Shown here piece after piece: positions 1-39,496 of a stretch of DNA of 39,496 nt. Positions within the stretch are counted from its first letter, which is position 1. Every line of letters starts with the position of its first letter. The position numbers were made by a program, and so were the translations under genes. Below the pieces are notes generated by a model. The model had not been told where the DNA came from. It did no database searches and worked only from the letters and a program-made list of their open reading frames with translations. This DNA comes from a virus, in the IMG/VR virus record IMGVR_UViG_3300049783_000946, positions 1-39,496 of that record; one strand, 5' to 3'.

Positions 1-666
1 TGCTCTACCAAGGTTTGACTTCATGCTTCCCAATTTCTTCACCAGGTCATCAAACTCTTTTGTTGTATCCTGAGTTTTTACTTCAACTTGCTTACCTATT
101 TTAATAAGGTCAAAAACACTTGTCACAGCAGCTTCATTACCTGGACCAAGCTTATCTTTTCTTAACTTCTTTGCAGCAAGCAAGTAAAGAAATGGCATAT
201 CAGCAAAGAATCCCCATTGATTTGGCACAAACTCACACTTAACATCATAAGAGCCATCGCTACCATTAAATGAGGTAGATGTTCTCTTTAGATTAAGAAG
301 CCATGTAGATGGCTCCCCAAGGTATCCTTTAAATGAAAATAAAAACTTTGGAGGCGGCCAGTTAAATAAGACAGAATAATCAATAGAAATCCCATCTGCT
401 GGATGTCTTTCTTGACCTCCAAAAATAGTTTGTCCATACAAATCCTTGAATACAATTGTAACGAGAGGTTGAAGTGATGTGTTTATTTCTATGTCAATTG
501 ATGTGATACCAAAGCCCACGCTATCTCTAAAGAACTCTGCACTAAACAGTTTTCTCCCAAGAAAATCAAAAGTACTTCCCCCAACGCAAGCTTCAAGCCT
601 AACGTCAATGAATAGGTCTTTCATTAGAAAACCTTCTGGTTGCGGATTTACTGGTGTTCTTCCCAT
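1..666 (-). CDS. Virion structural protein, N-terminal part (runs off the window)
   Basis: An open frame of 222 codons starts with ATG at 666 and is still open at base 1, so the C-terminus is missing. It begins MGRTPVNPQPEGFLMKDLF. No enzyme motif is visible. The text is mostly beta-type, with an aromatic/proline patch NWPPPKFLFSFKGYLGEP near residues 99-116. It starts 2 bases after the stop of the LysM-like baseplate gene, so the two are co-transcribed and presumably co-assembled. The family is not identified. From position and composition I infer a large baseplate or tail structural protein of the far-T4 type. The frame is certain; the function is inferred. Confidence 0.75.
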   Translation of the reverse strand, partial: MGRTPVNPQPEGFLMKDLFIDVRLEACVGGSTFDFLGRKLFSAEFFRDSVGFGITSIDIEINTSLQPLVTIVFKDLYGQTIFGGQERHPADGISIDYSVLFNWPPPKFLFSFKGYLGEPSTWLLNLKRTSTSFNGSDGSYDVKCEFVPNQWGFFADMPFLYLLAAKKLRKDKLGPGNEAAVTSVFDLIKIGKQVEVKTQDTTKEFDDLVKKLGSMKSNLGRA

Positions 667-668
667 TG

Positions 669-974
669 TTATCCTCTATCTCTAAGTTTAACAATTTTTA
701 TGTTCACCTCATTTAATACATCTTGAAGTGGTGCTGGAACTCTAATCGGAGTGTTATCAGGAATGTCAAATTCCATGAAGTACTCTGGATTTGCCCACAA
801 TATGAGTCTCCAAAAAGTTTCATCTCTATAGATGTCTCCAGCAATAGTGTCGAGTCTGTTTTTTTGCTTATTGTATATGATAACTCTATCAGTATGTCTC
901 TTGTTGATTTCAACAGGCGGCATATCTTTCAACTTATCGTTGCTCTTTAATAAACTATAGAAATTGAATGGCAT
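669..974 (-). CDS. Small LysM-like baseplate protein (T4 gp53-like)
   Basis: A 101-residue protein. Its C-terminal two thirds have the LysM pattern: an N-terminal DTIAGDIYRDETFWRLI segment (about residues 42-58), then LWANPEY and a hydrophobic PIRVPAP strand near residues 77-83. In contractile phages, short LysM-like proteins sit in the baseplate; T4 gp53 of the wedge has such a domain, and phage tail protein X is related. The position between two large structural genes agrees. It follows the 1452-residue gene with about 60 bases between, where a TTATTTATAA element lies 16 bases before the ATG. It could instead be a tail-terminator or hub LysM adaptor; the wedge assignment is by analogy. Confidence 0.6.
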   Translation of the reverse strand: MPFNFYSLLKSNDKLKDMPPVEINKRHTDRVIIYNKQKNRLDTIAGDIYRDETFWRLILWANPEYFMEFDIPDNTPIRVPAPLQDVLNEVNIKIVKLRDRG

Positions 975-990
975 AATTATTTACTTTTTA

Positions 991-1000
991 TTATAAATAA
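991..1000 (-). promoter_or_regulatory. Putative late element TTATTTATAA
   Basis: Reads TTATTTATAA on the minus strand, 16 bases before the ATG of the LysM-like gene. No clear -35 box. One of the set of elements shared by the structural genes. Confidence 0.45.
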
Positions 1001-1036
1001 TAAGAATAAAAAAAGTGAAAACAAAGCTATTATAGA

Positions 1037-4000
1037 TTATAATCCACCAAGAGGGCTATACATACCTCCTTTGTCTGTAGCAAGAGGCGGTGCAGCATTG
1101 AATGACCTGAATGGTCCAATCATATTAAAGTTGATTGAAACGAGTACCCACATAGGCTGAACTCTACCTGCATCAAGCGTCCAAGGAGCATCTGCATAAT
1201 CAAAAGAAACACTGTTTACAACAATATCATGGTTCCACCAATCACCAAGGTGAATATGGCAAATAGGCGGCTTTGTAAATGAGAACCCAGTACCTGTTCC
1301 ATTTTCATTTGCTGATGGTCTTGTAAGTTTAGACAAGAACTCTACTTTTCTAACGAAGTCAATTTTATCTCCAGAGAAATATGATGGTTGGAACATCAGA
1401 CTTTTCTTCATTGTGTTAATTCTCTTAATAGTATCTTCTGGCTTGCTAATAGTTTCTCCATTCACAAATTCCTTTTTAATCATATCTATGTTATAGATAT
1501 TTCCAGCACTACCATTAGTTTCAGAGTAGTTTGTAATTCCATTAAAGTTATTACCCGCTTCTCCAATAGCATCATTGGTTTTCCCAGCTTCAGCAGATAG
1601 CTCCGCACTTCTTGCGGCTAACTCTGCTCCTTCAACATTGTTGGCTTCACTTTGATTGCCATTTTCATTTAGTTTATTTGCAGCTTCTGCTTTATTTTTA
1701 ATTTTTAACACATCAATATTAAGCCATGAAGGACCAGCACCTGCGTCTGCACCTTTTTCTATAACTGATTTTTGTTCAGAAATAGCCACAGCTTCAGTTT
1801 GGTTTTCTTCAATCTTTTTGCTGAGTTTAGTTTTTTCTTCACGCTGTGCAGCTTGTTGTGCTTTAAGTGCTTCAACTCTGCTTATTCTGGCAGAGTTTTG
1901 CTGTTTATCTTTTGTAGTAAAATGCTGGTCGAATGTTGCAGTAACTTTTTCCATACCTTCACTTCCCCAGTCTCTACCAATATCAACACTTTGTGCATAG
2001 TCAGTTAGAACAAAAAACGAAATAGAAGCGTCTCTGCTTGAGTTGTTGTACGTATAAACAGCCTCTGGTCTACCAAGGAAGTTAACTGAATTCCAGTTAG
2101 CATTCTCAGTATTTTGCATGCTCGTAATATAAGGAGGAAAGTGAAACTGTTCTTCACTCGCATAATTCTTTATAAAGAAAATTAGTTTTCCAGCATCAGA
2201 AGGAGCATAAGGATTTGCTATCGTATATCTTTGTCTTGAAACTCTTGCGCTACCATCTCTTTCTACACCAGTAATATAAGCTCTATTGTTCTGTGGGTCA
2301 AAGTTTGCTGCCAGAGGCTGGTCACTTGACTTGATAGTGTTCACAATATGCTTAACACCTCTTTTTCCAAGAAAGAAATCTTCATCCTCATAAGGGTTTC
2401 CAAGAGATGTCTTAGCCATCATTGATTCTGCAGAACCAAGAATAGCATCATTCGCTGTTGGTCTTAATAAATCCATTTCACCAGCACCACCTTGATAATA
2501 GGTACCGCCATTAGCTTGTATAACTGAAGCTGGAGTCGTAAGTGTTCTCAATTGAGATAAACCTTGGAATGAACCAATGGTATGTGAAATTAAATCCTGG
2601 AATCCTTCTTGATTAAACCCTTCAAGTCTTGCTAATGAAGTTGGGTCACCTGCCTGTAATCCATGCAAGTTAAAAACACTTCGCTCCAAGTTATAGTCTC
2701 TAATAGTAGAAGTTACTTGTCCCTCACTGTAAGGTGTATAAGTTTTTCTATGGAAGAATGAATCTGAAAATTGACCACCCTTGGCAGTTCTTGAATTTGT
2801 AGAATAAAGAGCATCACTAATATCTCTATCAGCTCTTCCAGTTGGAAAATCTACTCTACTACTTGTTCCATACATGTTTTGCATTTCAACACCCTTTGTT
2901 GTAATGTAGTCATCTGTTGCAAAAATTGCTTTTGCTGTAGGTGTATAATACGGTTCAAGAGGCGTGTAATCAACCATGTTCGTATTATAACTACCTTGCA
3001 TTATCTTACCAAGCTTCCAATTCTCACTGTTCGCAGTGTATTCATCGTTTGAAAGTTGCCATTTGTTTCCAACCTTATTGTTTTCTCTAATTTGCTCAGA
3101 GCCTGTTAACAAATTGGTGTTCTTAGATTTATTCTTTGAAAGGAGTAATTGTCTTAAAATAATACCCTGAGTAAACACTCTTGATATTCCAAGAAAAGCA
3201 CTTGTTCCAGCGCCATAGACATTTAATCCCAATAAGCCATAACCAGCATTTTTTGCAATAGCATCTGTTCTGTATGTTGTAGAATCTGTAAGAAGATTTT
3301 GTGCCAACGGAACATTAGACGAAATAGCATCATCTCTAAAGTCAACTGAATCAGCAAGAATGCTTGAGTTAATTGGAACGTTTGCAGCAAGGTCTGTTTG
3401 TCTGTGTATAATAGAATCTGCAGCAAGATTACTTATGCTTGGCACGTTCGATGCCAAGTCATCTTCTCTGAATGTTTCTGAATCCGTTAAAAGATTGCTT
3501 GTGTTTGGCACATTGGATGCCAAGTCATCAACTCTAAATGGAACTGAGTCTGTTTCTAAATCACTATCACTTGGCACGTTAGCAGCAAGGTCATCGTTTC
3601 TAAATGGAACTGAGTCCACTTCCAGGTCTGTAACATTCGGGCTGTTAGCTGAAAGGTCATCTGTTCTAAATAAAACAGAATCTGTCTCCAGGTCTGTAAC
3701 ATTAGGAGTATTAGCAGCAAGGTCATCCAATCTAAAGTCTAATGAATCTATTTCAAGGTCACTTAAGTTTGGGGTGTTAGCTGCAAGGTCATCTGCTCTG
3801 AAGACAACTGAGTCTGTCTCCAAATCTGTATAATTTGGAGTATTAAATGATAAGTCATCACTTCTAAATGGAACTGAGTCTGTTTCCAGATTGCTTCCAT
3901 TTGGCTTGTTGTATGACAGGTCATCTTCTCTAAATACACCAGAGTCTTTTTCAAGGTCAGAGAAACTTGGCTTGTTTACAGCGAGGTCATCAGCTCTAAA

Positions 4001-5395
4001 ATCCACAGAGTCTCTTTCTAAGTCGCTCTCGCTTGGTTTATTCACTGAAAGGTCATCTGCTCTAAATTGAGCAGAATCTTCCTCTAAATCGCTTAATTTA
4101 GCTTTATTTAATGATAAGTCATCATGCCTAAATGGAACTGAGTCAAATTCCAAGTTGCTTCCATTTGGCTTATTTGCCGAAAGGTCATCACTTCTGAATG
4201 TTTTCGAATCACCTTCAAGGTCAGAATTGTTCGGAACATTTAAAGAAAGGTCATCTTTTCTAAACTGGCCTGAATCTGATTCTAAATTTGTAACTGAAGG
4301 TTTGTTTTTTGATAAAGAGTCTGGTCTTTTTTCATCAGCAACTTCATCTAATCCAGTTTTACTTGGAACGTTTTTAGAGATACCGCTATTTCTATAAATA
4401 GCAGAATCAGCCTCCAAGTCAGAACCCTTATCTACGTTCTTTGAAAGATTATCTCTTCTGAAGAGTTCATTATCTTTTTCAATATCAGTACTGTTTGGAA
4501 CATTTCTGTTCAAATCCTTTTCTCTATAACCCGTTCTAATATCTTCAGAATCTCTAAGGAGGTCCTGGTCTTTTGATGGATTCTTGCTTAAGTCTCCATT
4601 TCTAAAAGACTTAGAATCTTGTTCAAGGTCACTTTCATTTGGAGTATTCTTCGCAGCGTCTTGTTCTCTCTTTGATTTAGAGATTTCATCTACACTTTGC
4701 TTATTAACCCCTTCAACATTTTTCGCAAGGTTCTTTGTCCTAAAAGATTCAGAGTCTTTTTCAAGGTCTGTATTGATTGGGACGTTCTTGTGAATATCGT
4801 TTTTTCTATATTGATTTCTAAACGCTTCAGAATCATGCAAAAGGTCTTGGTCTTTTGATGAATTCTTTGCAATGGCATCTTCTCTAAAAGAAGCGTTGTT
4901 TCTATCAATAGTGTCGTTAATTGATAGGTTTGGGTTATTCTTGGCAACATTGGCCATTCTCGCTTGTTCTGAATCTTTTTCAATATCCGAACTCTTAGGG
5001 GAGTTTTTTGAGATTAGATTTTTTCTAAAAGCCTCACCAGACCTCATTAAGTCACCTCTGTCATCTTGAATCTTTGCTCTTGCAAGCATTGACTTTCTAA
5101 AATCAGCAGATATTTTTTCAAGGTCAGTCTCATTATCAACTAACTTAGCAATTAATCTATCTCTTATGATTTTTGCATCTTCTTCAAGATTTGATTTGAA
5201 TGGGGCGTTTTTGGACAATAGTGTTTCCCTTGTTCTTGGATAAAGAACATCATAAACGCTTGATGGTCTGACAACAGTTTTAGCAAGAAGTCTCTGTCTC
5301 GCATTAGCTGAGAATTCTTCATAGTATTCTTTTAGCTTCTGCTCTTGTCTTGCAGCATCATCGTTTGGGTCAAATAAAGGGAATCCGTCTTCCAT
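1037..5395 (-). CDS. Large baseplate/tail structural protein with ~29 tandem 22-residue repeats
   Basis: A 1452-residue protein in three parts. Residues about 1-60 are a charged helical head. Residues about 61-715 are roughly 29 imperfect 22-residue repeats of the type NxPNxSDLExDSxxFRxDDLA. Residues about 716-1452 hold a small glycine-rich hydrophobic segment, a globular region (with FPPYITSMQNTENANW and FLGRPEAVYTY near residues 1090-1120), a coiled-coil/low-complexity linker rich in Ala, Glu and Asn (about 1165-1300), and a C-terminal beta domain ending SINFNMIGPFRSF. The C-terminal text resembles phage tail-tube-initiator or baseplate proteins that contact LysM-type partners, and the LysM-like gene is next downstream. 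The repeats probably form an extended fibrous or solenoid spacer. Start ATG at 5395, preceded by a TTATTTATAA element. The exact T4 counterpart (gp48/gp54 class) is uncertain. Confidence 0.65.
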   Translation of the reverse strand: MEDGFPLFDPNDDAARQEQKLKEYYEEFSANARQRLLAKTVVRPSSVYDVLYPRTRETLLSKNAPFKSNLEEDAKIIRDRLIAKLVDNETDLEKISADFRKSMLARAKIQDDRGDLMRSGEAFRKNLISKNSPKSSDIEKDSEQARMANVAKNNPNLSINDTIDRNNASFREDAIAKNSSKDQDLLHDSEAFRNQYRKNDIHKNVPINTDLEKDSESFRTKNLAKNVEGVNKQSVDEISKSKREQDAAKNTPNESDLEQDSKSFRNGDLSKNPSKDQDLLRDSEDIRTGYREKDLNRNVPNSTDIEKDNELFRRDNLSKNVDKGSDLEADSAIYRNSGISKNVPSKTGLDEVADEKRPDSLSKNKPSVTNLESDSGQFRKDDLSLNVPNNSDLEGDSKTFRSDDLSANKPNGSNLEFDSVPFRHDDLSLNKAKLSDLEEDSAQFRADDLSVNKPSESDLERDSVDFRADDLAVNKPSFSDLEKDSGVFREDDLSYNKPNGSNLETDSVPFRSDDLSFNTPNYTDLETDSVVFRADDLAANTPNLSDLEIDSLDFRLDDLAANTPNVTDLETDSVLFRTDDLSANSPNVTDLEVDSVPFRNDDLAANVPSDSDLETDSVPFRVDDLASNVPNTSNLLTDSETFREDDLASNVPSISNLAADSIIHRQTDLAANVPINSSILADSVDFRDDAISSNVPLAQNLLTDSTTYRTDAIAKNAGYGLLGLNVYGAGTSAFLGISRVFTQGIILRQLLLSKNKSKNTNLLTGSEQIRENNKVGNKWQLSNDEYTANSENWKLGKIMQGSYNTNMVDYTPLEPYYTPTAKAIFATDDYITTKGVEMQNMYGTSSRVDFPTGRADRDISDALYSTNSRTAKGGQFSDSFFHRKTYTPYSEGQVTSTIRDYNLERSVFNLHGLQAGDPTSLARLEGFNQEGFQDLISHTIGSFQGLSQLRTLTTPASVIQANGGTYYQGGAGEMDLLRPTANDAILGSAESMMAKTSLGNPYEDEDFFLGKRGVKHIVNTIKSSDQPLAANFDPQNNRAYITGVERDGSARVSRQRYTIANPYAPSDAGKLIFFIKNYASEEQFHFPPYITSMQNTENANWNSVNFLGRPEAVYTYNNSSRDASISFFVLTDYAQSVDIGRDWGSEGMEKVTATFDQHFTTKDKQQNSARISRVEALKAQQAAQREEKTKLSKKIEENQTEAVAISEQKSVIEKGADAGAGPSWLNIDVLKIKNKAEAANKLNENGNQSEANNVEGAELAARSAELSAEAGKTNDAIGEAGNNFNGITNYSETNGSAGNIYNIDMIKKEFVNGETISKPEDTIKRINTMKKSLMFQPSYFSGDKIDFVRKVEFLSKLTRPSANENGTGTGFSFTKPPICHIHLGDWWNHDIVVNSVSFDYADAPWTLDAGRVQPMWVLVSINFNMIGPFRSFNAAPPLATDKGGMYSPLGGL
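3254..5215 (-). repeat. Tandem 66-bp (22-codon) repeats inside the structural gene
   Basis: About 29 units, each near 66 bases. They are imperfect towards the 5' end of the gene (several units carry 1-4 extra codons) and very regular from about 3450 to 4330. There a GATGAC core (seen on the plus strand as GTCATC) recurs at 3655, 3721, 3787, 3853, 3919 and on. Unit consensus: NxPNxSDLExDSxxFRxDDLA. Asp is GAC whenever the next codon starts with C, so no unit contains GATC. Confidence 0.9.
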
Positions 5396-11016: not shown

Positions 11017-12090
11017 CTACCTCGTTTTAGACTTCGCTTTCGCTGCTCTGTGAGCTTTTTCTTCAGCCTCTTTCTTCTTGGTAAGCTCTTCGTTGATTCT
11101 GTTAAGTAACCATCTCCTTTCGGTAACTGGCATTTTCTTTGCATCTTCATGACTAATACCTTTACCATAATAAGACACAAGGAAGCATTCTTCTTGAACA
11201 TTCTCTCTAAATGTCGCTGGGAAAGCAAGAAAACTATGAGCTCCACCGAAGTTAAGTGCATTATCTTTACCGCAAGAGCTACATGAGTGCCTAACAATAG
11301 CATCTACTCCAGGAGTAGAATTTATAACAAACTTCTTTACTCTTCTTATTTGTGGGATGCTGAGCTTTCTATATATTTGTGATATAATCATTTTATCTTC
11401 ACAATCATTTACTGAATGTGTCATATAAATCAATTTATCCAAACTGCTCAGCTTGGCTTTTTCTATACCAATCTCTTCAAAATAAGTAAGGGGCTTAAAC
11501 ATAAATATAAGTTCAGTACCATCCAAAAGCATTGGAATCATTCCATTCTCTGGCTGAGCTACAATATCTTTCATCTGAAATGATGACAATCTAACTGGAA
11601 CTTCTTCTTCAAACCCACAATGAGGACATTCAAGCTCAAGTTCAAGATTATCTCCATAGGCATATGAGCGCAAAAACAACCCAATAGCCTGAACATCTCC
11701 AGTTAATAAATCCTTTGGGTCTATGTTTTGTTCTACAAGAATATTCTTAAGAACAAACTCCATAGCCTTTCCAGACTCTACAAGGAATTCACTTGTGAGG
11801 AGATTTTCCTCAACATAAGTCAGTTGATTTAAAAGAAGATGGTTCTCTTGGCTTGGATAAAAAAGACCTCTTGAGGGTATAAATAACATCTCAAAAGGTC
11901 TCTCTATATTTTTATGTTTCCTTTCTTGTTGAATCAGTTCGGCAAGATTTCTTACCTCATCTGTATTCTCGCTAAACTTTTCTTTTAGCTCGTTAACAGA
12001 CTTCAACAAGTCATTGGCATCCTTGTTTTTTTCTACAACCTCTTTCAAATCATCAATAGACTTTATTATATCTTGATGACCGTCTGACAT
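11017..12090 (-). CDS. T4 gp26-like baseplate hub assembly protein, paralogue 2
   Basis: A 357-residue protein. After a coiled-coil head (residues 1-60), a domain starting IPSRGLFYPS (71-80) leads to a first Cys pair CPHCG (155-159). A second pair lies in CSSCGKDN (270-277), and the C-terminal tail is charged and Lys-rich (KKKEAEEKAHRAAKAKSKTR). The layout and the Ser/Gly-x-FYP motif match the neighbouring upstream gene and the T4 gp26-type baseplate family. In T4, gp26 takes part in hub assembly and may not remain in the virion. The two Cys pairs probably bind one zinc. The gene starts 1 base after the stop of its paralogue. It differs from the paralogue mainly in the coiled-coil head and basic tail. 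Confidence 0.65.
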   Translation of the reverse strand: MSDGHQDIIKSIDDLKEVVEKNKDANDLLKSVNELKEKFSENTDEVRNLAELIQQERKHKNIERPFEMLFIPSRGLFYPSQENHLLLNQLTYVEENLLTSEFLVESGKAMEFVLKNILVEQNIDPKDLLTGDVQAIGLFLRSYAYGDNLELELECPHCGFEEEVPVRLSSFQMKDIVAQPENGMIPMLLDGTELIFMFKPLTYFEEIGIEKAKLSSLDKLIYMTHSVNDCEDKMIISQIYRKLSIPQIRRVKKFVINSTPGVDAIVRHSCSSCGKDNALNFGGAHSFLAFPATFRENVQEECFLVSYYGKGISHEDAKKMPVTERRWLLNRINEELTKKKEAEEKAHRAAKAKSKTR

Positions 12091-12091
12091 A

Positions 12092-12985
12092 TTAATCTAA
12101 GTCTGGGTAGAACAACTTAGGAGTAATTGGAATATCTTTAATATCCAGTTCCCCACATGATGGGCATTCGAATTCGTAAGAAAGGTCCAATCCTGGCTCA
12201 ATTCTTCTAACATACTCTCTAAAGAACCCAGAATCTTTCATTGGCATTGCTGCAATAAACTTCTTAATGTAAAGCTTGTCTCTGTTTCCATTTACTTCCA
12301 TGATTTGCATCACGTACTTTTCAGTAACAAGTTTAGAAACTCTGATTCCTCCATTTTTCGTACCTTTTACTTCAGCAAGTTTTCCTAATCTTTTTTCATC
12401 AACTCCAGTAAGAAGTCTAAATCTAATTCTCATTTTCATGATAGGAAGTTCTACCTCATACTCTCCATCTGAATCTGGCATAATCTCAAGAGTCTTGGAG
12501 CCAAGCTTAGAAAGGTCGATTGTTGGCTCGTGAACCTGGCCGCAAGAAGGGCATTGTATTTCTCCTGGAACATAGTCATTACCAAGACCAGTCTTTCTGA
12601 TTTCAACAAGAAGGTAGTTTCTGTCTCCAGAAAGCATATTTTCAGGTCTAAGGTCTTTGTCCATAACAGCTTTATCAAGAAGAACATCTAATACTTTTCC
12701 TGACTTAATAAGGTCTGGAGAATAAAGAATATCATCTTCTTCAGCTGTAAGGTACTTAATTGTAACTGATTTTTTGTTGTTTGGATAAAACGCTCCCATT
12801 GATGGCAACTCTACCTCTTCGGTTGGAACTTGAAATTCCATGTCAAGATACTGCTCTGGGATATTATGCTCCTTAGCAATGTCTTTTTGTGTTTTAGGTT
12901 CTTGCTGGCTATTAATTCCTTCATTGGGATTAGTATTACCACTATTTGGCTCTTTAGCTCCGCCTAACGTTATAGTTTCTGACAT
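12092..12985 (-). CDS. T4 gp26-like baseplate hub assembly protein, paralogue 1
   Basis: A 297-residue protein. After a disordered Gly/Asn/Gln-rich head (1-45) come LPSMGAFYPNN (60-70), DLIKSGKVLDVLLDKAV (91-107), a Cys pair CPSCG (145-149) and a second pair CPSCGELD (274-281). The protein ends FYPDLD. The same order of elements appears in the downstream gene, so the pair is a tandem duplication. Family knowledge: T4 gp26-like proteins (Pfam T4_baseplate type) help build the baseplate hub. The cysteines suggest a structural zinc site. ATG at 12985 follows a long AT-rich leader containing ATATTTATTA. Confidence 0.7.
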   Translation of the reverse strand: MSETITLGGAKEPNSGNTNPNEGINSQQEPKTQKDIAKEHNIPEQYLDMEFQVPTEEVELPSMGAFYPNNKKSVTIKYLTAEEDDILYSPDLIKSGKVLDVLLDKAVMDKDLRPENMLSGDRNYLLVEIRKTGLGNDYVPGEIQCPSCGQVHEPTIDLSKLGSKTLEIMPDSDGEYEVELPIMKMRIRFRLLTGVDEKRLGKLAEVKGTKNGGIRVSKLVTEKYVMQIMEVNGNRDKLYIKKFIAAMPMKDSGFFREYVRRIEPGLDLSYEFECPSCGELDIKDIPITPKLFYPDLD

Positions 12986-13064: not shown

Positions 13065-13424
13065 TTAGATTTGAGAATCAATTTGAGAACTACCGTCTGT
13101 CTGAGTCTGCACCTGTGTCTGCATCTGAGTAAACTTAACTGCATTAATTTCTGATTGCTTTGACATTTCGAGCTCAAGTTTTGCTGCTTCAAGTCTGTCT
13201 TTTACAACCTTTACCATCGCAACTCTGGCATCTCTTTCATCTCTTGGAAGGCTGGATACTCTGGCATCAGCTTCTCTATATTTAAGCTCATCCTCAAGCT
13301 CTTTGACTTGCTCTTCATTAGAAGCAATCATATCCTGACTAAGCTTCATAGGGTCTTCTTCACCTATTTCCATCATAACCTTGTAGACTTCTTCTCTGAT
13401 TATTTTTTTAAGTTCCTTATCCAT
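13065..13424 (-). CDS. Small coiled-coil protein, unknown function
   Basis: A 119-residue protein, helical throughout and rich in Glu, Lys and Met, with heptad-like spacing (EEQVKELEDELKYREAD near residues 37-53) and a Gln/Thr/Ser-rich tail (TQMQTQVQTQTDGSSQ). Its first 8 bases overlap the end of the DUF559-like nuclease gene, which indicates translational coupling. Candidate roles are a tail-assembly chaperone or a structural spacer; no family is recognised. Confidence 0.65.
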   Translation of the reverse strand: MDKELKKIIREEVYKVMMEIGEEDPMKLSQDMIASNEEQVKELEDELKYREADARVSSLPRDERDARVAMVKVVKDRLEAAKLELEMSKQSEINAVKFTQMQTQVQTQTDGSSQIDSQI

Positions 13425-13896
13425 CTTTCAATAATTTTTTAAATCTCTTCTTTTGTTCTTTATAGTCATTGTTGAGGTCATATTCCCACACTCTCTCAAT
13501 AGTATATCCATTTCCTTTCGCAAGCACATCCTTAAATTTGTCATTTCTGACATTTCTAATCTGCATCTTATTCAAATCTTTCGACTCGTAAATAAGAGGG
13601 TTTGCATGATAGTAATCCCCATCAACCTCAACCATCATATTCTTGGATGGTATATAAAAGTCATATATCTTCTTTCCAAGAATCTTCTGAGTTTCAAATT
13701 CAACCCCAAGCTCTTTCATCATCTCAGCAAAAACCTTTTCAGGAGCCGTCATCTTGTTTGACATCTTCTTTGCTTGAGATTCAAGCGTCTTCTTTTTCTT
13801 TAGCCTTGCTGCTTCAGGGCTCGCCTCTCTTCTGGCTTTGGCTATAGCCTTTTTAACCATTTGAGCATAAGTCAAATTATTTCTTTTCTTCGCCAT
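13417..13896 (-). CDS. DUF559/Vsr-like PD-(D/E)XK endonuclease
   Basis: A 159-residue protein. The basic helical head (1-48) is followed by a compact nuclease core. TAPEKVFAEMMKELG carries the conserved Glu (E53), then come D79 in IYDFYIP, E90-V-D92-G in MMVEVDGDYYH and H97, followed by a basic helix and GNGYTIERVWEYDL. This is the pattern of DUF559/Vsr-fold enzymes, which cut DNA at mismatches or act as free-standing homing endonucleases. The gene is tightly embedded among virion genes: TAATG overlap with the gene before and 8-base overlap with the gene after. This is unusual for a selfish insertion and may mean a resident role in DNA processing. All key acidic residues are present, so it is probably active. 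Confidence 0.7.
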   Translation of the reverse strand: MAKKRNNLTYAQMVKKAIAKARREASPEAARLKKKKTLESQAKKMSNKMTAPEKVFAEMMKELGVEFETQKILGKKIYDFYIPSKNMMVEVDGDYYHANPLIYESKDLNKMQIRNVRNDKFKDVLAKGNGYTIERVWEYDLNNDYKEQKKRFKKLLKDG

Positions 13897-16000: not shown

Positions 16001-16115
16001 ATTCAACGTCTATATTAAATCCTGGACATGGCACCATATCCATACAAGTACCTATTTCATGCTCTGACAATCTTTCTAAAAACATTTTAAACCCTTCTAT
16101 TTCTGCTTCACTCAT
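15993..16115 (-). CDS. 40-residue acidic micro-gene
   Basis: Protein of 40 residues starting MSEAEIEGFKMFLERLSEHE and ending FNIDVEYE, with a helical head and two cysteines (TCMDMVPCPG). It overlaps the end of the HNH gene by 8 bases and the start of the next micro-gene by 8 bases. The overlaps and a clean ATG/TAA frame support coding, but it is short and has no recognised relatives. Confidence 0.5.
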   Translation of the reverse strand: MSEAEIEGFKMFLERLSEHEIGTCMDMVPCPGFNIDVEYE

Positions 16116-16545
16116 CTTCTTTTTTTTCTAAAAACGTAATATCAAGTTCCCAATTATTTTGACTTCTCTTTTCCCATACATCAAAACACTCATTCACATA
16201 TTTCTCTGCACCTTTTTTAGTCATCTCATTAACTGTCATAAGCTTATTTAGAACTACGTCAAATCTCCCTTGTATTTGAGCAAGACCCACATGCTTTGTA
16301 GAGTGACAATCTGGACACAGAGCAATAAGCCCAAGAAGTGTTTGCTTGTGTGTTTCGTCATTATAGTCCCAAATCTCATGGCACTCCACTGGATGTTTTG
16401 GACCTTTCCCAGCACAAACCTCACACTTGTACCCAGCCTTCTTGTAACATTCCTTTCTGAGAACATCCCACTCTGCCGCTGTAACATTAGAGCGGACATT
16501 GCTATACCAAGCTGTTTGTGGTACTAATTCAATCGTTAACTTCAT
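16108..16545 (-). CDS. HNH endonuclease
   Basis: A 145-residue protein with a zinc-supported HNH core: CEVC (C41, C44), then VECHEIWDY with H56, LLGLIALCPDCH with C77, C80 and H81, and a further His at H85. These match the betabetaalpha-metal HNH layout; such proteins nick or cut DNA and are often free-standing mobile nucleases in phages. The start overlaps the last 17 bases of the polymerase gene, so it is in the same operon. It may be a homing nuclease or a resident replication/recombination nuclease. The N-terminal 25 residues are not family-specific. Confidence 0.8.
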   Translation of the reverse strand: MKLTIELVPQTAWYSNVRSNVTAAEWDVLRKECYKKAGYKCEVCAGKGPKHPVECHEIWDYNDETHKQTLLGLIALCPDCHSTKHVGLAQIQGRFDVVLNKLMTVNEMTKKGAEKYVNECFDVWEKRSQNNWELDITFLEKKEDE

Positions 16546-19500
16546 CTTCTTTTTTGCTTAAATCTTTATCAACTCGAACGATTCTCGTTCCTCTCTTAAA
16601 GTTTACATACCCTTTTGCGTTCTTTTCAAACTCAGCAACGTATATTCCATTTGCTGCAAGGAGTGGCTGAAGGTCTTTTGCAACTGGGTCGAATGCTCTA
16701 AGTGTTGTGAAACTAATTCCATCACCAACCCTCATTGTTAAATACTCTTTCCCATTCTTACTCATAGAAACCTTGAAGGTGTCAACAACAAAGATATAAA
16801 AATCATCATCATCAAAATTTATTATCGTCTCTACAAGTTTATTTCTTTTTGCTCTGGCGTTTACATCAGCTTTTATGTCTTGAATGTATTTAATTTTTTC
16901 AAGGTCAAAATTACACACCTCAAGGAAGTCCATTCTTTTTGATGCCCAGTTTGTTGGAGGATATTTGTTTTCCTCTTTTTTAACTGGAATGTCGAAAGCA
17001 GAATCGTTCATATCAAACAACACAGTCTGATTAGCGTCTACTTTCTTTTTCTTTTTAGTCTTAGACTTAAGGTCAGCCAATTGCTCTCTCGATGTACTCC
17101 AATCATCAAAAACTCCCGCCTTAAGACAAGCTTCAAAAGCACTCTTGTTAAACTTGCTAAACGCCAGTCTAAAGAATTGACTCATGGTTACAGTTTCAAG
17201 AATCTTTTTTGGCTGCCCATCTGTGACTTTAATTTGTCCGATTAACTCCAACATCTCTTCGTATGCAATTGGACCTAATCCATTAATACCAGAGAATCCC
17301 ATAGATATTTCATGCTCTCCAGTCATTGTCCATCTCCATCCTGATTTTCTTGATGGCATCTTGATTTCAATTCCTTTCGACATTGCTGACGCAATCGCAG
17401 AACCAATCCAAGCTTGTTGCTTTTCTTTATTTCCAGATTTAGGATGATTCAAAAGTGCTGTATAAAATTCAGTAGGATGATAATGCTTTAAGTACAATGT
17501 CTGCATCGCCAAGTACGAATAAGAAAGTGCGTGAGATTTGTTGAATGAGTAACCAAGATACTGAATTACCCAATCTTTAATTCCATCAACTTCATCTTTA
17601 TTATAACCCTGAGCAGCTGCGCCATCAAGGAACATTCCCCAATATTCTTGGAAGCCTTTCCAGTTTCTATTATTTTTTTCTTCATCCGTCAATTTCTCTC
17701 CAGCTGAATTTCTTGCAATAATCTTAGAAGCCTTGTCCATATATCTACGAAGCATGTCTCCTTTTCCAAGTCCCATACCACCAATCTTATCGGCAATAAA
17801 CATAAGTTGCTCCTGGAACACAAGTACTCCATTCGTCTCTCCAAGAATTGATTCCAGCGCTGGGTGAATGTACTCAATCTTCTCTGGGTTGAATTTGTTT
17901 ACGATAAACTCTTCGTGCGCACCAATACCCATTGGACCTGGACGATACAATGCATTCGCTGCGACAAGTTCCTCAAACTTCTCAACACCAATACCTCTAA
18001 TAAGATTATTCATCCCATGACTCTCAAACTGAAATATACCATGATTAAGACCAAGGCGAAGTTCCATAAACAAATTAGAATCTTCAAGGTTTACATAATC
18101 TACACTCTCAGTTATATCAATACCTTTTGTTTTCTTAACTATTTCTATTGTCTCCTTAATTACATTTAAGGTTTCCAACTTCAATCTATCTAATTTTAGA
18201 ATACCCAAAGCCGAAAGGTCTTTTCCAGACTTATCAGCCTCTTGAAACGCTGTAACCACATTTTCATTTGATGCAATAACGTTTGTCGGAATATAATCCC
18301 AAGACAGACCTGGAGTAATTACAACCCCTGCAGCGTGTTGACCAATACCTCTAATGTTTCCATGAAGCTGAAGAGCGGTTTCAATCATCTCAGTGTTTTT
18401 TGGATTTCTAATCCAAGCTTTAACTTCTGGAGAACACTCTGGTTTATCTGGCCATGTCTCAAACCAATGCCTAAGAGTGTCATTGTAATTTAAGAAGTTC
18501 GGCATCTCTTTCGTTAATTTGAACACTCCTGAATCAAATCCAGTTGCATCACTTCCACGATAAGCACGAACAACATCTTTAATTGTGTTTTTCTCTGAGA
18601 ATGTAGAGAACGTTGCAACAGACATCACACGCTCCTTACCATATTTATCTTGCAAGAATTGATTGGTTACATCATCTGTACCAGTCATAAAATCAATATC
18701 AATATCTGGCGGTGAATCTCTTTCTGGATTTAGGAAACGCTCGAAATAAAGACCAAACCTAATTGGGTCAATCTTTGTGATGTCAAGACACCATGATAGT
18801 AAGCTACCTGCAGCAGAACCCCTCGCTGGACCAATGTCATGCCCTTGGTCTCTGTAGAAGTTAATTATCTCCCAGTTAACAAGAAAGTAGTCAAGCATCT
18901 TCTTTGATTCGATGATACTGATTTCATAATTTAAACGAGCAACATACTCTTCAATTTTTTCCTCAGTCATTTCAACGATTCCATTCTTCTTGTAGATTTC
19001 AATCTTTTGTTTCAACTTAGCAAATGCAAGTTTAACAATTATCTCCTCTGTCTTATCTGTCTTGAAGTAGTTGATTACTTTTTCAGTTGGTTCATACCTT
19101 GGGTATTTCTCTGTTCCAGTATCAAATTCGAAATTACACTTATCAGCAATAACATTTGTATTTTTCATACAAAGCTCAAGAAACTTTTCAGGATACTTAA
19201 ATCCATACTTAGTATTCATTTCTCTATAGTCATCACTGTTAAAGTAATACAATTCTCTATTCTCTTTTAGGGAGCAGTAAGCCAACATACGATGCTGCTT
19301 AATTGATGTAACCACATCCTGGAGATTAGAATTTTCCTTTCTTGGATAGTAAGTGTCATTGCTTAATACAGGAAACAATTTATACTTACTCATCATTTTG
19401 ATTAGGAAGTTGTTGTATTGCTTCTGAGTGGCGAACTTACTAAACTTGAACTCTACTATCAAATCATCTGTAAACTCTGTCCTAAGCATGTTAACATAGT

Positions 19501-20635
19501 TCTCTGCGTCAACATCTCTACCTTTAAGAACCAAGTTTGCCAATTTACTGTCAAGACCAGAAGTTGAGACAACCAATCCCTCTTTGTATTTCAACAACCA
19601 CTCAGTAGTTATTCTTGCTTCTTTCTTAAAGTAACCTTCTGTATTAGACAAATACAATAAGTGGTTCAGGTTTTTATAACCCTGCTCATTCTTTATGAAA
19701 ATCTTTATCCTGTAATTATCTCCCTCAAGCTCTTTTTCTTCGAATTTACCAATGTTGTCATTCAAGAAAATCTCAATACCGAAAATTGGCTTAATCCCAT
19801 TTGCCTTACACTTATTGAAGAACTCGAATGTTCCAGACAATGTTGAATTATCTGTAATAGCCATTGAGGTATGTCCATACTCTTTTGCAATCTTAATGTA
19901 TTCAGTAGCAGAACCAGCTCCTTCAAGAATTGAGTGAAACGTATGTAATCCAAGTGGAGTTATCTTAATTGTATCAGCATCTACTTCTGAAGGTTTCTCT
20001 TCAGCAGCTATAGACAACGATTCCATAAGGTCTTCGGCTCTATCGTCTTCTTTAAATCCAAGAATCCCTATTCTCTGAAGCTCGAAGAAACATCTTGCTA
20101 ATGCGGTAACATCGGCAAGTGCATCGTGAGCATCATCAAATCCTTTGTCAAATAACTTTTGGTGGAGCTCTGTTTGAGAAGGGAACTTAAATCCACTTCT
20201 ACCTCTTTTGTTTGGAATTGCCACGAAGTCAGTTGTGAGCTTCATGGTATCAATATGATTTATGTCTGGAACACAATTATGCATTCCCTCTCTAAGAAAC
20301 TCACATCCTGTTACATTTTCATCAAACGTTATATTGTGAGCAATAAGGTGCTTATTGTTTTTTACAGCTTCAGCGAACTTTTCAAGAGCCTGCCTCAAAG
20401 GAATCCCTTCTTCTTTGGCTCTTTCATTTGTAATCCTATGAATCGCTATTGCTTCATCAGGAATTTTAAACCCTTGAGGTTTAATTATTAGATTCTGTGA
20501 ATCTATCTCTACTCCATTTCCATCAAACACCTTCCAAGCAATCTGAACCATTCTTGGCCAATTGTTGAAGTCTGTGATAGGAGCGCTGAAATTTTTTGCC
20601 TTTCCAGTGGTCTCGGTATCAAATACTATATACAT
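16529..20635 (-). CDS. dnaE: DNA polymerase III alpha subunit fused to a DnaQ-like proofreading exonuclease
   Basis: A 1368-residue family-C replicase. Residues 1-195 are a DEDDh exonuclease (D6/E8 in VFDTETTG, AHNITFD, HDALADVTA). Residues about 225-330 are a degenerate PHP domain: LHTFHS, and ITDNST where active PHPs have TDH. The polymerase palm, fingers and thumb follow, with ARGSAAGSLLSW, PDIDIDF (643-649), QHAAGVVITP, ALYRPGPM, VFQEQLMF and KSHALSYSYLAMQTLYLKHY. A Q-T-V-L-F sliding-clamp motif is at 1203-1207, and an OB-type region closes the protein. It carries out processive DNA synthesis and proofreading in one chain, replacing the family-B polymerase of T4. First gene of an operon with HNH, micro-genes and RNase H, read from the promoter at 20682-20713. 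Confidence 0.95.
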   Translation of the reverse strand: MYIVFDTETTGKAKNFSAPITDFNNWPRMVQIAWKVFDGNGVEIDSQNLIIKPQGFKIPDEAIAIHRITNERAKEEGIPLRQALEKFAEAVKNNKHLIAHNITFDENVTGCEFLREGMHNCVPDINHIDTMKLTTDFVAIPNKRGRSGFKFPSQTELHQKLFDKGFDDAHDALADVTALARCFFELQRIGILGFKEDDRAEDLMESLSIAAEEKPSEVDADTIKITPLGLHTFHSILEGAGSATEYIKIAKEYGHTSMAITDNSTLSGTFEFFNKCKANGIKPIFGIEIFLNDNIGKFEEKELEGDNYRIKIFIKNEQGYKNLNHLLYLSNTEGYFKKEARITTEWLLKYKEGLVVSTSGLDSKLANLVLKGRDVDAENYVNMLRTEFTDDLIVEFKFSKFATQKQYNNFLIKMMSKYKLFPVLSNDTYYPRKENSNLQDVVTSIKQHRMLAYCSLKENRELYYFNSDDYREMNTKYGFKYPEKFLELCMKNTNVIADKCNFEFDTGTEKYPRYEPTEKVINYFKTDKTEEIIVKLAFAKLKQKIEIYKKNGIVEMTEEKIEEYVARLNYEISIIESKKMLDYFLVNWEIINFYRDQGHDIGPARGSAAGSLLSWCLDITKIDPIRFGLYFERFLNPERDSPPDIDIDFMTGTDDVTNQFLQDKYGKERVMSVATFSTFSEKNTIKDVVRAYRGSDATGFDSGVFKLTKEMPNFLNYNDTLRHWFETWPDKPECSPEVKAWIRNPKNTEMIETALQLHGNIRGIGQHAAGVVITPGLSWDYIPTNVIASNENVVTAFQEADKSGKDLSALGILKLDRLKLETLNVIKETIEIVKKTKGIDITESVDYVNLEDSNLFMELRLGLNHGIFQFESHGMNNLIRGIGVEKFEELVAANALYRPGPMGIGAHEEFIVNKFNPEKIEYIHPALESILGETNGVLVFQEQLMFIADKIGGMGLGKGDMLRRYMDKASKIIARNSAGEKLTDEEKNNRNWKGFQEYWGMFLDGAAAQGYNKDEVDGIKDWVIQYLGYSFNKSHALSYSYLAMQTLYLKHYHPTEFYTALLNHPKSGNKEKQQAWIGSAIASAMSKGIEIKMPSRKSGWRWTMTGEHEISMGFSGINGLGPIAYEEMLELIGQIKVTDGQPKKILETVTMSQFFRLAFSKFNKSAFEACLKAGVFDDWSTSREQLADLKSKTKKKKKVDANQTVLFDMNDSAFDIPVKKEENKYPPTNWASKRMDFLEVCNFDLEKIKYIQDIKADVNARAKRNKLVETIINFDDDDFYIFVVDTFKVSMSKNGKEYLTMRVGDGISFTTLRAFDPVAKDLQPLLAANGIYVAEFEKNAKGYVNFKRGTRIVRVDKDLSKKEDEVND

Positions 20636-23033: not shown

Positions 23034-24800
23034 TTATCCCAACAACCAACTTAAATCATCATCATCGCTTGCTCCTGGAGTTCCAGCACCACCTACGTCT
23101 GTATTCCCATTTCCATTAAATATAAAGAGACCGCCTCCTCCTTTTGGGTTCTCTGTCTTTTTTGTATTTTCAAGTACTTTTCCAACAGAAGGGTTTGCAT
23201 TAAGCATCATCGCATTAAGCATGCTTTTTGTCATCTCAGTAGATGAAATTACGTTTTCGAATTCTGTATCCCTAATGTAAAGAGCAATTCCAAGCGCCAT
23301 GATTAAATCATCATGAGAACCTTTTTCGTGCTCTGGTTTGTCTCCATTCATAACAAATGTGTCAAACTCCATCATAAGCCTTTTAGAGTGAAGAGTTATT
23401 GAGTTCTCCCTCATATGCTCGATAATAGCCTTTACAAGAAGTACTCTGTTTTTTCTTGATGTTTGGAAACCTGGAATCTCTGTTCCTTCATTTACTTTGT
23501 AAGAATAGTGCCTTACGTGAATGTCTTTTATATTTTTAGAAAAGTATAACCTGTTTCTTGGATACTTGAATTTATCTCTAACGTCAAAACAAACACCAAG
23601 ACCAAACGAGTTCGCCTCAATTACAACATATGCTTTATTATACATCCTTGCTACTGCGTCAATTACGTGTGGGAATAAATCTGGACCAACCTTTTCTCTG
23701 TACTCTGCCACTTGTTCAAGTGTTTCAGCATCAAGAATCTGCATTGTAGAGTAATCCTGACCATCACCCCTGGCGACATCGGCAGCGAGTATGTAGCTCG
23801 CTCCCTCTTCTGGTTGTTTAAAGATATGCATATTTGTTTCCTCCAAAGTAAACTTAGCAAACTCTGATGGGTTTTCTTTTTGCATGAAATCAAACTTAAT
23901 GTAACCAAGTCTTTTGAAATCAGCCTCAACCTTTGCTCTATACTTAGAAACCAACTCAGCATCAATTGCAAGCCTTTTCGAACCTTCAAACGAAAGGTCA
24001 AGCTCTTGTGCAATCTGAACTGAATCCCAGTTAAGCCTTTTACATTGCGCTTCATACCATGGGCTCCAAGGTTTCTCGTTTCCATTAGCATCCTTTTTGT
24101 ATTCAAGACCTTCTGCGCTATTTTCATTTTCAGTCCAGTGAACTGTTTTTCCAACAAAATCTTCTGCCTCATTAGCAGATTTATCTCCACTAATAGTTTC
24201 TCTCCAGGTCTTGTAATATAATCCAGAAGTACCGTTTGGTGTAGAAATCATAATACACTTTCCACCAGTAGCAGAAAGCGCCATACCAGCTCCCATCCAA
24301 ATTGCCTCGTCATCTTTAATAAAGGCGGTCTCATCAAGAACCAGCATTGTAAGTGAATCTCCACGACCAGCGTTAGGGCTCGATGCTTTTGCTTCAGCGT
24401 AAGAGTTGTTTGAAAACGCAATCTTCTTTGTGTTATCAGTTTCGATTGCATCTGGCTTAAGCCACAATGGAGTATGTTCAATAAATTGTTTTACAGTTTC
24501 AAGAAAACGAACCGCACCAGCGCCATCATTGGCAATGATAAGAATCTTTTCATCATATCTGAACAAAAGTCTCCACGCAACATATCCAGCTGTAACAACC
24601 GAAAGACCTGTTTGTCTTGACTTTAAAATTATGTTATTTTGGTATTCGTGAAAGTTTCTTAGACAATCGTTTTGATATTCAAAACATTCCATCTTAGTCA
24701 CCATTCTCTCTTTTGCGTTAAACACATACCCATATGTGTTCATGTAATATACAGGGTCAGCTGCACACTTTGCAAATTCCAACATTTGATTATTCACCAT
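23034..24800 (-). CDS. Terminase large subunit (T4 gp17-like)
   Basis: A 588-residue packaging motor. In the ATPase domain, the P-loop region is ILKSRQTGLSVV (58-69), the Walker B is TMLVLDETAF with D157/E158, and a coupling segment ISTPNGTSGLYYKTW follows. In the RNase-H-fold nuclease, D341 lies in AADVARGDGQD, E395 in VVIEANSFG, and H496-D497-D498 in GSHDDLIMALGIA. It pumps DNA through the portal and cuts the concatemer. The P-loop lacks the usual GK[S/T]: the lysine is before the loop (K60), as in some T4-like marine phages. The C-terminus ends in a Gly/Asn/Asp-rich tail. The length is close to T4 gp17 (610). No small subunit is visible next to it. Confidence 0.95.
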   Translation of the reverse strand: MVNNQMLEFAKCAADPVYYMNTYGYVFNAKERMVTKMECFEYQNDCLRNFHEYQNNIILKSRQTGLSVVTAGYVAWRLLFRYDEKILIIANDGAGAVRFLETVKQFIEHTPLWLKPDAIETDNTKKIAFSNNSYAEAKASSPNAGRGDSLTMLVLDETAFIKDDEAIWMGAGMALSATGGKCIMISTPNGTSGLYYKTWRETISGDKSANEAEDFVGKTVHWTENENSAEGLEYKKDANGNEKPWSPWYEAQCKRLNWDSVQIAQELDLSFEGSKRLAIDAELVSKYRAKVEADFKRLGYIKFDFMQKENPSEFAKFTLEETNMHIFKQPEEGASYILAADVARGDGQDYSTMQILDAETLEQVAEYREKVGPDLFPHVIDAVARMYNKAYVVIEANSFGLGVCFDVRDKFKYPRNRLYFSKNIKDIHVRHYSYKVNEGTEIPGFQTSRKNRVLLVKAIIEHMRENSITLHSKRLMMEFDTFVMNGDKPEHEKGSHDDLIMALGIALYIRDTEFENVISSTEMTKSMLNAMMLNANPSVGKVLENTKKTENPKGGGGLFIFNGNGNTDVGGAGTPGASDDDDLSWLLG

Positions 24801-26155: not shown

Positions 26156-26188
26156 AAAAAAAGGGGTCATAATAATATAGCCCCTTTT
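26156..26188 (-). terminator. Terminator-like hairpin abutting the patatin start
   Basis: AAAAGGGG (26159-26166) pairs with CCCCTTTT (26181-26188) around a 14-base loop, followed on the minus strand by a T-run (26156-26162). It follows the stop of the membrane-protein gene by 26 bases and runs straight into the patatin ATG. Confidence 0.65.
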
Positions 26189-36950: not shown

Positions 36951-37005
36951 ACCGAAGTTTTATTTTCTTTTAATTCAAATCGAATAAATAATTTTTTTTT
37001 ATACT

Positions 37006-37015
37006 CTATTTATTA
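37006..37015 (+). promoter_or_regulatory. Putative late element CTATTTATTA (tail tube side)
   Basis: Reads CTATTTATTA on the plus strand, 34 bases before the tail tube ATG. The only plus-strand gene with the element in its sense direction, which shows that its orientation follows the gene. Confidence 0.5.
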
Positions 37016-37049
37016 ATACAAACGAAAATAACAATTTAAAAATAAGATT

Positions 37050-37538
37050 ATGGCTGATATGTTTAGACCAGTTCCAATTGAACAGGAACCGAAAAGAAAG
37101 AACAGATTCGTGTTGGAATTTCCAACTGAGCTTGGTATTGAGAGTTTCTTAGTACAAACTTCAGGAAAACCATCACTTGAAATCGGTTCAACCGAAATCC
37201 AATACATGAATACATCAACTTGGGTTGCTGGTCGTTCAGTTTGGTCAACTATTGAAGTTTCATTCATTGACGTGATTGGACCCTCAACTACTCAAAAAAT
37301 TATGGAATGGGTAAGATTGCACTTTGAATCTGCTACAGGTAGAATGGGTTATGCAATTGGATACAAAAAGAACCTTGTACTTAAAGCTCTTGACCCAACA
37401 GGGGTTGAAGTTGAAAAATGGACTTTAATTGGATGTATGATTACAAATGCTTCATTTGATGATTACGATTATGGTGCTGATGATTTATCTACAGTAACAA
37501 TTACACTTCAGCCAGACAGATGTCTGCTTGCGGCATAA
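37050..37538 (+). CDS. Tail tube protein (T4 gp19-like)
   Basis: A 162-residue protein; T4 gp19 has 163. It has the tail-tube pattern: an N-terminal strand after RKNRFVLEFP, the SGKPSLEIGSTEIQYMNTST hairpin (residues 40-59), and VWSTIEVSFIDVIGPSTTQK, then IMEWVRLHF. The middle has NLVLKALDPTGVEVEKWTLIG, and the end STVTITLQPDRCLLAA. Hexameric rings of it stack into the inner tube of the contractile tail, through which DNA passes. It is transcribed alone on the plus strand, bounded by the late element and a strong terminator, as suits a protein needed in many copies. No Shine-Dalgarno sequence. Confidence 0.93.
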   Translation: MADMFRPVPIEQEPKRKNRFVLEFPTELGIESFLVQTSGKPSLEIGSTEIQYMNTSTWVAGRSVWSTIEVSFIDVIGPSTTQKIMEWVRLHFESATGRMGYAIGYKKNLVLKALDPTGVEVEKWTLIGCMITNASFDDYDYGADDLSTVTITLQPDRCLLAA

Positions 37539-37561
37539 TATTATTGTAAAAATATTAACTC

Positions 37562-37605
37562 AAACCTTGGGTGCTATTTTTTAGCGTTCAAGGTTTTTGT
37601 TTTTA
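37562..37605 (+). terminator. Rho-independent terminator after the tail tube gene
   Basis: AAACCTTG (37562-37569) pairs with CAAGGTTT (37589-37596), with an inner GCTA/TAGC pair, followed by a T-rich run (TTGTTTTTAA). Confidence 0.75.
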
Positions 37606-37614
37606 ACGGAGACT

Positions 37615-38004: not shown

Positions 38005-38010
38005 CAAGAC

Positions 38011-38370: not shown

Positions 38371-38390
38371 AAACAAATTAACACAAAATG

Positions 38391-38422
38391 AAAAAAGCCA
38401 TCTAATTTAGATGGCTTTTTCT
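38391..38422. terminator. Bidirectional rho-independent terminator
   Basis: AAAAAGCCATCTA (38392-38404) with TAGATGGCTTTTT (38408-38420). A-run on one side and T-run on the other, so it works both ways. It lies between the convergent BppU-like gene and the lipoprotein gene. Confidence 0.85.
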
Positions 38423-38458
38423 TTTCTCAAAAGATTTTGTTTAAATCTTCATGAAATA

Positions 38459-38581
38459 TTATGACATCACTTCTGTGGTGTCTGTTTTATGTTCAACGTT
38501 TCCATAAGCATCACAATGAGACGTGCTCGCACAAGATGCGAGTGCCGACCCAATGATTAATGCAATAATTATCTTTTTCAT
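38459..38581 (-). CDS. 40-residue lipoprotein
   Basis: Short protein MKKIIIALIIGSALASCAST..., ending NVEHKTDTTEVMS. It has a perfect lipoprotein signal: two lysines, a hydrophobic core, and the lipobox L-A-S-C with Cys17. The mature part is only about 24 residues and holds a second Cys (HCDAYGN). Small lipoproteins in phages serve as outer-membrane spanins (Rz1-type) or block receptors against superinfection (T5 Llp-type). Flanked by a terminator downstream and a CTATTTATAA sequence 2 bases upstream of the ATG. The GIY-YIG gene ends 15 bases before it. Confidence 0.75.
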   Translation of the reverse strand: MKKIIIALIIGSALASCASTSHCDAYGNVEHKTDTTEVMS

Positions 38582-38583
38582 GT

Positions 38584-38593
38584 TTATAAATAG
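38584..38593 (-). promoter_or_regulatory. Late-type element CTATTTATAA close to lipoprotein ATG
   Basis: Reads CTATTTATAA on the minus strand, 2 bases before the lipoprotein ATG. Spacing is short, as at 27661 and 31452. Confidence 0.25.
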
Positions 38594-38596
38594 TTT

Positions 38597-39385
38597 TTAA
38601 TTTTCTTCTTTATATTTCCAAACATATCCTCCAGAAGACTTTAACTTACCTTTAGCTGCCATAGCCACATTTCCAGCATTAAAACCATCTTCAACTACCT
38701 GGTTTATAAAATCATACTCTTTAATTTTATTCCCTTCTTTATCAAATTGAACGACAGACCTCCTGTGCTTAACTGGTTTACCATACATAGGATTCTTCTC
38801 TCCTTTTTGTCTATCACCTTTTCCATGTGCTGGATTCTTCTCTCCAATATTAGCTTTCCTTATTTTGTTTAATGTTTCTTCTGAATGCTTTCTACCCTTT
38901 TGTGCTTCTGCAGAATTTTCCTTCATTTCATTAGCTTTCTTTTTCCCATACAACTCTTCCCATGATTTTCCTTTCCTGGATTCAGACATTTTCTTTCTTT
39001 GTTCATCCGTCCACTTGTTTCCATAATTTGGATTGTTTTCTCCTAAACTACTTTTACTCATTTTATTCCTAACGTAATCATTGTGCTCATTAAGAAGTGG
39101 GTCCTTAAAATTATATGTGTTATCACTATTGATTCCTCCGTAGTGGTCAATCCAATGTTTCTCTCTTGAATCCAAGATAGACAAATCTTCTATCTCTTCT
39201 AAAATCTCATAAATGAACTTATCCTCACCATATTTATCAAAAGACCTCTGCAGATGCTCGTTGTGATGTTCTTTTCTTTTTATTCTATATAAATGCCTTC
39301 CATACCTTGTGCCTAAATTTTCTGCCTGGCCTACATAAACTTTGTTGTCAGTAGTGTTTGTTATTTTGTAAATTCCCGATTTCAT
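38597..39385 (-). CDS. GIY-YIG homing endonuclease (Seg-like) with NUMOD3 motifs
   Basis: A 262-residue protein. GIY (4-6) and YVG (17-19) start the nuclease domain, with R30 in YGRH and the catalytic E75 in REKHWIDHY. Three NUMOD3-type motifs follow: GENNPNYGNKW (115-125), GEKNPAHGK (181-189) and GEKNPMYGKP (195-204). A C-terminal NUMOD1-like helix-turn-helix covers VVQFDKEGNKIKEYDF and NAGNVAMAAKGK (211-250). Such enzymes cut a specific DNA site in related phages and spread their own gene. It sits as a free-standing gene between a terminator and the lipoprotein, with no late element of its own. All key residues are intact, so it is probably active. Confidence 0.92.
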   Translation of the reverse strand: MKSGIYKITNTTDNKVYVGQAENLGTRYGRHLYRIKRKEHHNEHLQRSFDKYGEDKFIYEILEEIEDLSILDSREKHWIDHYGGINSDNTYNFKDPLLNEHNDYVRNKMSKSSLGENNPNYGNKWTDEQRKKMSESRKGKSWEELYGKKKANEMKENSAEAQKGRKHSEETLNKIRKANIGEKNPAHGKGDRQKGEKNPMYGKPVKHRRSVVQFDKEGNKIKEYDFINQVVEDGFNAGNVAMAAKGKLKSSGGYVWKYKEEN

Positions 39386-39413
39386 AACTCTGGTTTTAAA
39401 TTAATTGTAAACA

Positions 39414-39445
39414 AAAAAGACAGAGTAATCAAACCCTGTCTTTTT
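39414..39445 (-). terminator. Rho-independent terminator upstream of the homing gene
   Basis: AAAAAGACAG (39414-39423) pairs with CTGTCTTTTT (39436-39445). On the minus strand it is followed by Ts and comes 18 bases after a TAA (39464-39466), so it ends the gene that lies to the right of the window. The mirrored A- and T-runs mean it could also work on plus. Confidence 0.75.
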
Positions 39446-39463
39446 AAATAGTTTAAAAAAAAA

Positions 39464-39496
39464 TTAAAATGTTCCTCGGTCAGTAGCTGCCTCCAT
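39464..39496 (-). CDS. C-terminal end of a gene entering from the right
   Basis: One minus-strand frame reads M-E-A-A-T-D-R-G-T-F then TAA, 18 bases before a terminator. Only ten codons are visible and a second minus frame is also open here, so the product cannot be named. A tail gene (for example the sheath, next to the tube in many T4-like phages) is only a guess from context. Confidence 0.35.
   Translation of the reverse strand: MEAATDRGTF

Follow-up and report, generated by a model that had tools for sequence, protein, structure and literature searches.

Why does a stretch of viral DNA nearly 40 kb long contain not a single GATC? The window analysed here is the whole stretch of 39,496 bases of IMG/VR virus record IMGVR_UViG_3300049783_000946 (positions 1 to 39,496). 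It represents part of a large T4-like myovirus, judging by the T4-type terminase, the gp20-type portal and the T4 baseplate-type proteins that were all found in it, and it has no close DNA match among 50,697 phage records. An earlier reading of the letters (the original prediction) had reported that GATC was missing, had estimated the GC content at about 35% and the chance expectation at about a hundred sites or more, and had proposed strong, long-lasting selection by GATC-cutting restriction. The exact count gave 0 GATC, compared to 100 expected from a second-order Markov model based on trinucleotides and 129 expected from base composition; the GC content was 36.8%, and both estimates were thus close. 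At an expectation of 100, the Poisson chance of finding none is about e^-100. We conclude that the missing words reflect purifying selection on DNA words which resemble Type II recognition sites and which vary by lineage. Very probably the genome has been cleared of sites cut by the restriction enzymes of its hosts, where we infer both the agent (host Type II enzymes or their equivalent) and the particular enzymes.

The absence is complete and it is not confined to GATC. Also missing, on either strand and in coding and non-coding DNA alike, were CTAG (67 expected), CGCG (15 expected), CGNCG (14 expected), CCGG (13 expected) and GATATC (9 expected), so that the original prediction was right about GATC but gave too short a list. 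GATC, CTAG, CCGG and CGCG were all at zero in the 2,416 non-coding bases of the window. The four absent 4-mers are all palindromes for which Type II enzymes are known. The palindromes that had been named as retained were indeed all present (GGCC 21, GCGC 33, TCGA 50, GTAC 82 and CATG 81), and the counts of GCGC, TCGA, ACGT and TTAA were close to expected.

It is the DNA word itself that is under selection, as shown by synonymous shuffles, codon neighbours and homologous sites. When the codons of the window genes were shuffled 100 times, with all proteins and the total codon usage left unchanged, 112 ± 8 GATC were obtained, again in line with the predicted hundred or more, and the lowest count of any shuffle was 94. 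The same shuffles gave 69 CTAG, 25 CCGG, 11 CGCG and 24 CGNCG, compared to zero observed for each, which rules out amino-acid composition or codon bias as the cause. Aspartate before a codon starting with C was always written GAC in the window (102/102), compared to 26% elsewhere (183/705), and isoleucine was never written ATC after G (0/119), compared to 13% otherwise. The 195-kb record of the close relative G002 followed the same rule for aspartate before C (GAC in 326/326), while the GATC-bearing sister G007 used GAC there in just 68 of 154 cases. The original prediction had pointed to this codon choice in 22-residue repeats; GAC-CTG and GAT-TTA are both real, on the minus strand, and the rule holds throughout the window. 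The repeats form a long Asp-Leu/Asn-rich run in a 1,452-residue reading frame (1037..5395, minus strand), in which Asp-Leu pairs were spelled GAC-CTN, GAC-TTR or GAT-TTR and never GAT-CTN. At positions where the amino acids are identical, the GATC sites of G007 were kept in none of 35 cases in the window, none of 47 in G002 and none of 24 in the relative G005, compared to 28 of 42 in the GATC-tolerant G009. Control words in the comparison of G007 with the window were kept at about 30% (AGCT 22/72, GTAC 5/18). The commonest replacement of the GATC of G007 in the window was GACC or GATT.

The same absence was found across most near relatives. The terminase large subunit retrieved 23 relatives from IMG/VR with 61-93% identity, and a terminase profile search widened the set to 80 listed loci. 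No GATC was present in 21 of the 23, and two (L015, L017) had near-normal counts. The original prediction had allowed that exact counting might bring GATC close to its Markov expectation, in the window or in the rest of the genome; it stood at 0/100 in the window, 0/465 in G002 and 0/1,714 in the pooled GATC-free set of 631 kb, window included. G002 also lacked CCGG (0/50), CGCG (0/71), CGNCG (0/50) and GATATC (0/44). CCGG and CGCG were missing from every near relative, while CTAG varied by lineage: the window, G005 and G010 had none, G002 had almost none (18/300) and G004 was near normal. CGNCG was found 0 times in the near family (708 kb), compared to about 149 expected, apart from three occurrences on the short contigs L005 and L018, and it was present in the next clade. 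CG pairs spaced by 2-10 bases were common in the same 708 kb. The pooled family was also low in CTCGAG, GTCGAC, CACGTG and ATCGAT, for which the expectation of the window itself is too small. Elsewhere in the wider tree single palindromes were missing, namely CATG (0/28, L076), GGCC (0/41, L108) and AGCT (0/18, L119).

Two close sisters, G007 and G009, carry GATC at 137/167 and 74/85, i.e. 211 sites together, and their terminase is approximately 75% identical. In these sisters GGATC (58 expected) and AGATCT (31 expected) were both at zero. This gap matches what AlwI- and BglII-type enzymes would cause and would be hard to obtain from mutation bias. A distant relative (L095) likewise had GATC and lacked GGATC and AGATCT, as in L015 and L017 but independently of them. 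A maximum-likelihood terminase tree with 84 rows requires at least seven changes of the GATC state, each of them imposed by branches with good support, and at least five changes of the CTAG state. The selection can therefore be called long-lasting in the window's own clade, as had been proposed, but not in the wider family. Both GATC states occurred within a single metagenome (L005 and L018 free, L017 bearing) and again within a second one (L014 and L023 free, L083 bearing), so that sampling site or library is not the source of the difference. It is most simply explained by different hosts.

In the proposed mechanism, an unprotected site in the infecting DNA would be cut by a host enzyme, and mutations that gain a site would be purged. 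Escape would occur mostly via synonymous change, GAT-C becoming GAC-C and ATC after G becoming ATT. The words cleared would be GATC first, with CTAG, CCGG and CGCG, and probably CGNCG and GATATC. Related phages with other forbidden words presumably use other hosts. Restriction is strengthened as the explanation because the sets of words avoided change from lineage to lineage as units that resemble enzyme sites, and known enzymes exist for GATC, CTAG, CCGG, CGCG and GATATC, as well as for the GGATC and AGATCT of the sisters. Given the form of the words, the lineage pattern and the precedents, restriction is the best explanation for the agent, and the interpretation in the original prediction gains support from the selection on the word and from the enzyme-like sets. 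Four points weigh against it. CGNCG has no entry in the restriction list used, where only CGWCG (Hpy99I) is found. To lose four to six sites together, the phage would have needed hosts that carry several enzymes, or different hosts one after another. No host has been assigned, and hence no matching enzyme has been seen. G002 carries a lone Eco57I/Type II-like DNA methylase with an NPPY motif (L033:10490-12028), which could protect another site; no restriction partner was recognised for it among the neighbours scanned. It is possible, although we hold it only tentatively, that the CGNCG taboo marks a host nuclease specificity not yet described and that switching between GATC and GGATC with AGATCT records the turnover of host restriction.

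The scan does not report taboos everywhere, because a Flavobacterium phage and Microcystis phage LMM01, used as method controls, showed no eliminated enzyme site in the parts examined. The features of the window are as follows.

1..39496, both strands: the whole window, with no GATC, CTAG, CCGG, CGCG, CGNCG or GATATC (exact counts)
1037..5395, minus strand: reading frame of 1,452 amino acids with at least about 13 repeats of 22 residues (66 nt), no Pfam match
11017..12985, minus strand: two T4-type baseplate-like proteins (PF12322)
13417..13896, minus strand: Vsr-like/DUF559 endonuclease of homing-endonuclease type
16108..16545, minus strand: small HNH-type protein (weak match)
16529..20635, minus strand: DNA polymerase III alpha with PHP and an N-terminal DnaQ-type exonuclease, one fused protein of 1,368 amino acids
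20971..22983, minus strand: portal protein, gp20-type
23034..24800, minus strand: terminase large subunit, the query for relatives and the basis of the tree
25190-26170, minus strand: patatin-like phospholipase, among structural genes
37050..37538, plus strand: T4 gp19-like tail-tube reading frame (weak match, below the curated cut-off)
38597..39385, minus strand: GIY-YIG/NUMOD3 homing endonuclease

The alternative that survives best is a non-classical host defence directed at GATC, for example phosphorothioate (Dnd-type) modification combined with restriction of unmodified GATC, which would yield an identical GATC taboo. However, by itself such a defence leaves the loss of CTAG, CCGG, CGCG and CGNCG unexplained, as well as the GGATC/AGATCT pattern of the sisters, and we regard it as improbable. 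Clearly less probable still is DpnI-type cutting, in which GATC in the phage DNA is methylated and then cut in the next host. GATC is the DpnI site and this variant had been raised in the original prediction, but it found no support. The methylase families PF02086 (D12, Dam-type), PF01555 (N6/N4) and PF00145 (C5) were not found in the window, in G002 or in G004-G012; these records are fragments, so that a methylase could lie beyond them, and methylation by a Dam of the host would still be conceivable. The earlier statement that no Dam-type methylase is visible was thus borne out for the window, and the lack of all three families in the window and close relatives also led us to reject protection by a phage-borne methylase. 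The search for DpnI-family proteins gave no match, but its control gave none either. DpnI-type cutting does not account for the other avoided words, and modification-dependent enzymes show weak avoidance in surveyed phages, for which the authors hold ordinary Type II systems mainly responsible (PMC6286503).

An equally slim chance is given to a GATC-cutting nuclease of the phage itself, which would destroy host DNA and spare the phage through the loss of sites instead of through a methylase. The window and its relatives do contain several nucleases (GIY-YIG, HNH and Vsr-like), but those of the window are of homing-endonuclease types. No protein of the MutH/Sau3AI or DpnII families was found in 17 phage records, with controls positive in E. 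coli and M. jannaschii, and one nuclease would be required for each avoided word. Homing endonucleases recognise long sites, and those of the window (GIY-YIG/NUMOD3 and Vsr-like) were also rejected as the selecting agent, since what is avoided here is a number of different words, all of them short. An artefact of mutation, of structure or of the data (polymerase bias, a packaging signal, or loss of GATC in the library or assembly) can practically be dismissed, as nothing positive favours it and other words of the same letters are normal. GATC was mostly replaced through synonymous changes specific to the word, 21 of the 23 related records show the same absence, and GATC does occur in related contigs of the same metagenome. 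The sisters with approximately 75% identity in terminase carry GATC at nearly normal levels and lack it only next to certain flanking bases.

With respect to the host, terminase and portal reach just distant isolates, from Flavobacterium and Microcystis. A genome scan located one contig (8.3 kb) that belongs to this phage family (L058, JAJFLM010000318.1), binned in a metagenome-assembled genome labelled Deltaproteobacteria. The other contigs of this bin vary widely in GC content, as in a mixed bin, and the lead is possible but weak. No psbA/psbD-type gene was found in the phage records searched. The G002 record (L025-L034) contains approximately 39 tRNA genes, one of which was called with the anticodon CTA, and it also codes for aminoacyl-tRNA synthetases, ribonucleotide reductase, chaperones, an RNA-repair set (RtcB, Tpt1 and Hen1/PNKP-type), NADAR and an Apyc1-like protein.

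The nearest isolate by portal is Microcystis phage Mel-JY01 (PP395634.1; L132, L153-L155; 41% over 57%), for which a literature search found no mention. Its 190 kb resemble the window in that GATC (0/357), CTAG (0/156) and GATATC (0/61) are all at zero, but differ in that CCGG and CGCG occur at normal frequency and that many further sites are gone, namely GGWCC (0/109), GAATTC (0/95), CTGAAG (0/50), CTGCAG (0/26) and, nearly so, TTATAA (2/130).

In the first 49 kb of Staphylococcus phage K, which served as a control for the same scan, a recount recovered GATC (0/109) and GGNCC (0/16), the sites of Sau3AI and Sau96I, both enzymes of S. aureus. Phage K (a Kayvirus) is, like the window, a large myovirus with zero GATC. 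Unlike the window, it is an unrelated phage with known host and enzymes and with accompanying words of its own (GGCC, GCNGC, CCAGA). The absence of GATC from phage K has been attributed to escape from Sau3A restriction (review PMC6532042). In the HF1-group haloviruses (HF1, HF2, Serpecor1, Hardycor2, HRTV-5, -7 and -8), GATC and CTAG are absent in 7/7 isolates, together with 21 6-mer palindromes, and host restriction is held responsible (PMC7230728). Both GATC and CTAG are wholly missing, as in the window, whereas the hosts are archaeal and the relatives compared all avoid the same two words, proviruses excepted; no switching of words, such as GATC to GGATC/AGATCT, is described in the sections consulted. 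Orthodox Type II sites are eliminated in some non-temperate double-stranded DNA phages, and GATC was under-represented in 46/46 phages that infect hosts coding for GATC enzymes (PMC6286503). For those phages the host enzymes are known, while the window family instead offers many independent changes of state.

The elimination of restriction sites in phages is thus already known, and the present family adds a further case. What is unusual here is that long genomes lack the words completely, that so many words are affected and that the state has changed many times within one family, in places within one metagenome. This provides a natural experiment on the speed at which restriction shapes genomes. 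As a fingerprint, the forbidden words of a phage could be compared with methylome data in order to name the hosts of uncultured phages. If the switching between GATC and GGATC with AGATCT does record the turnover of host restriction, it would likewise be usable for inferring the hosts of such phages.
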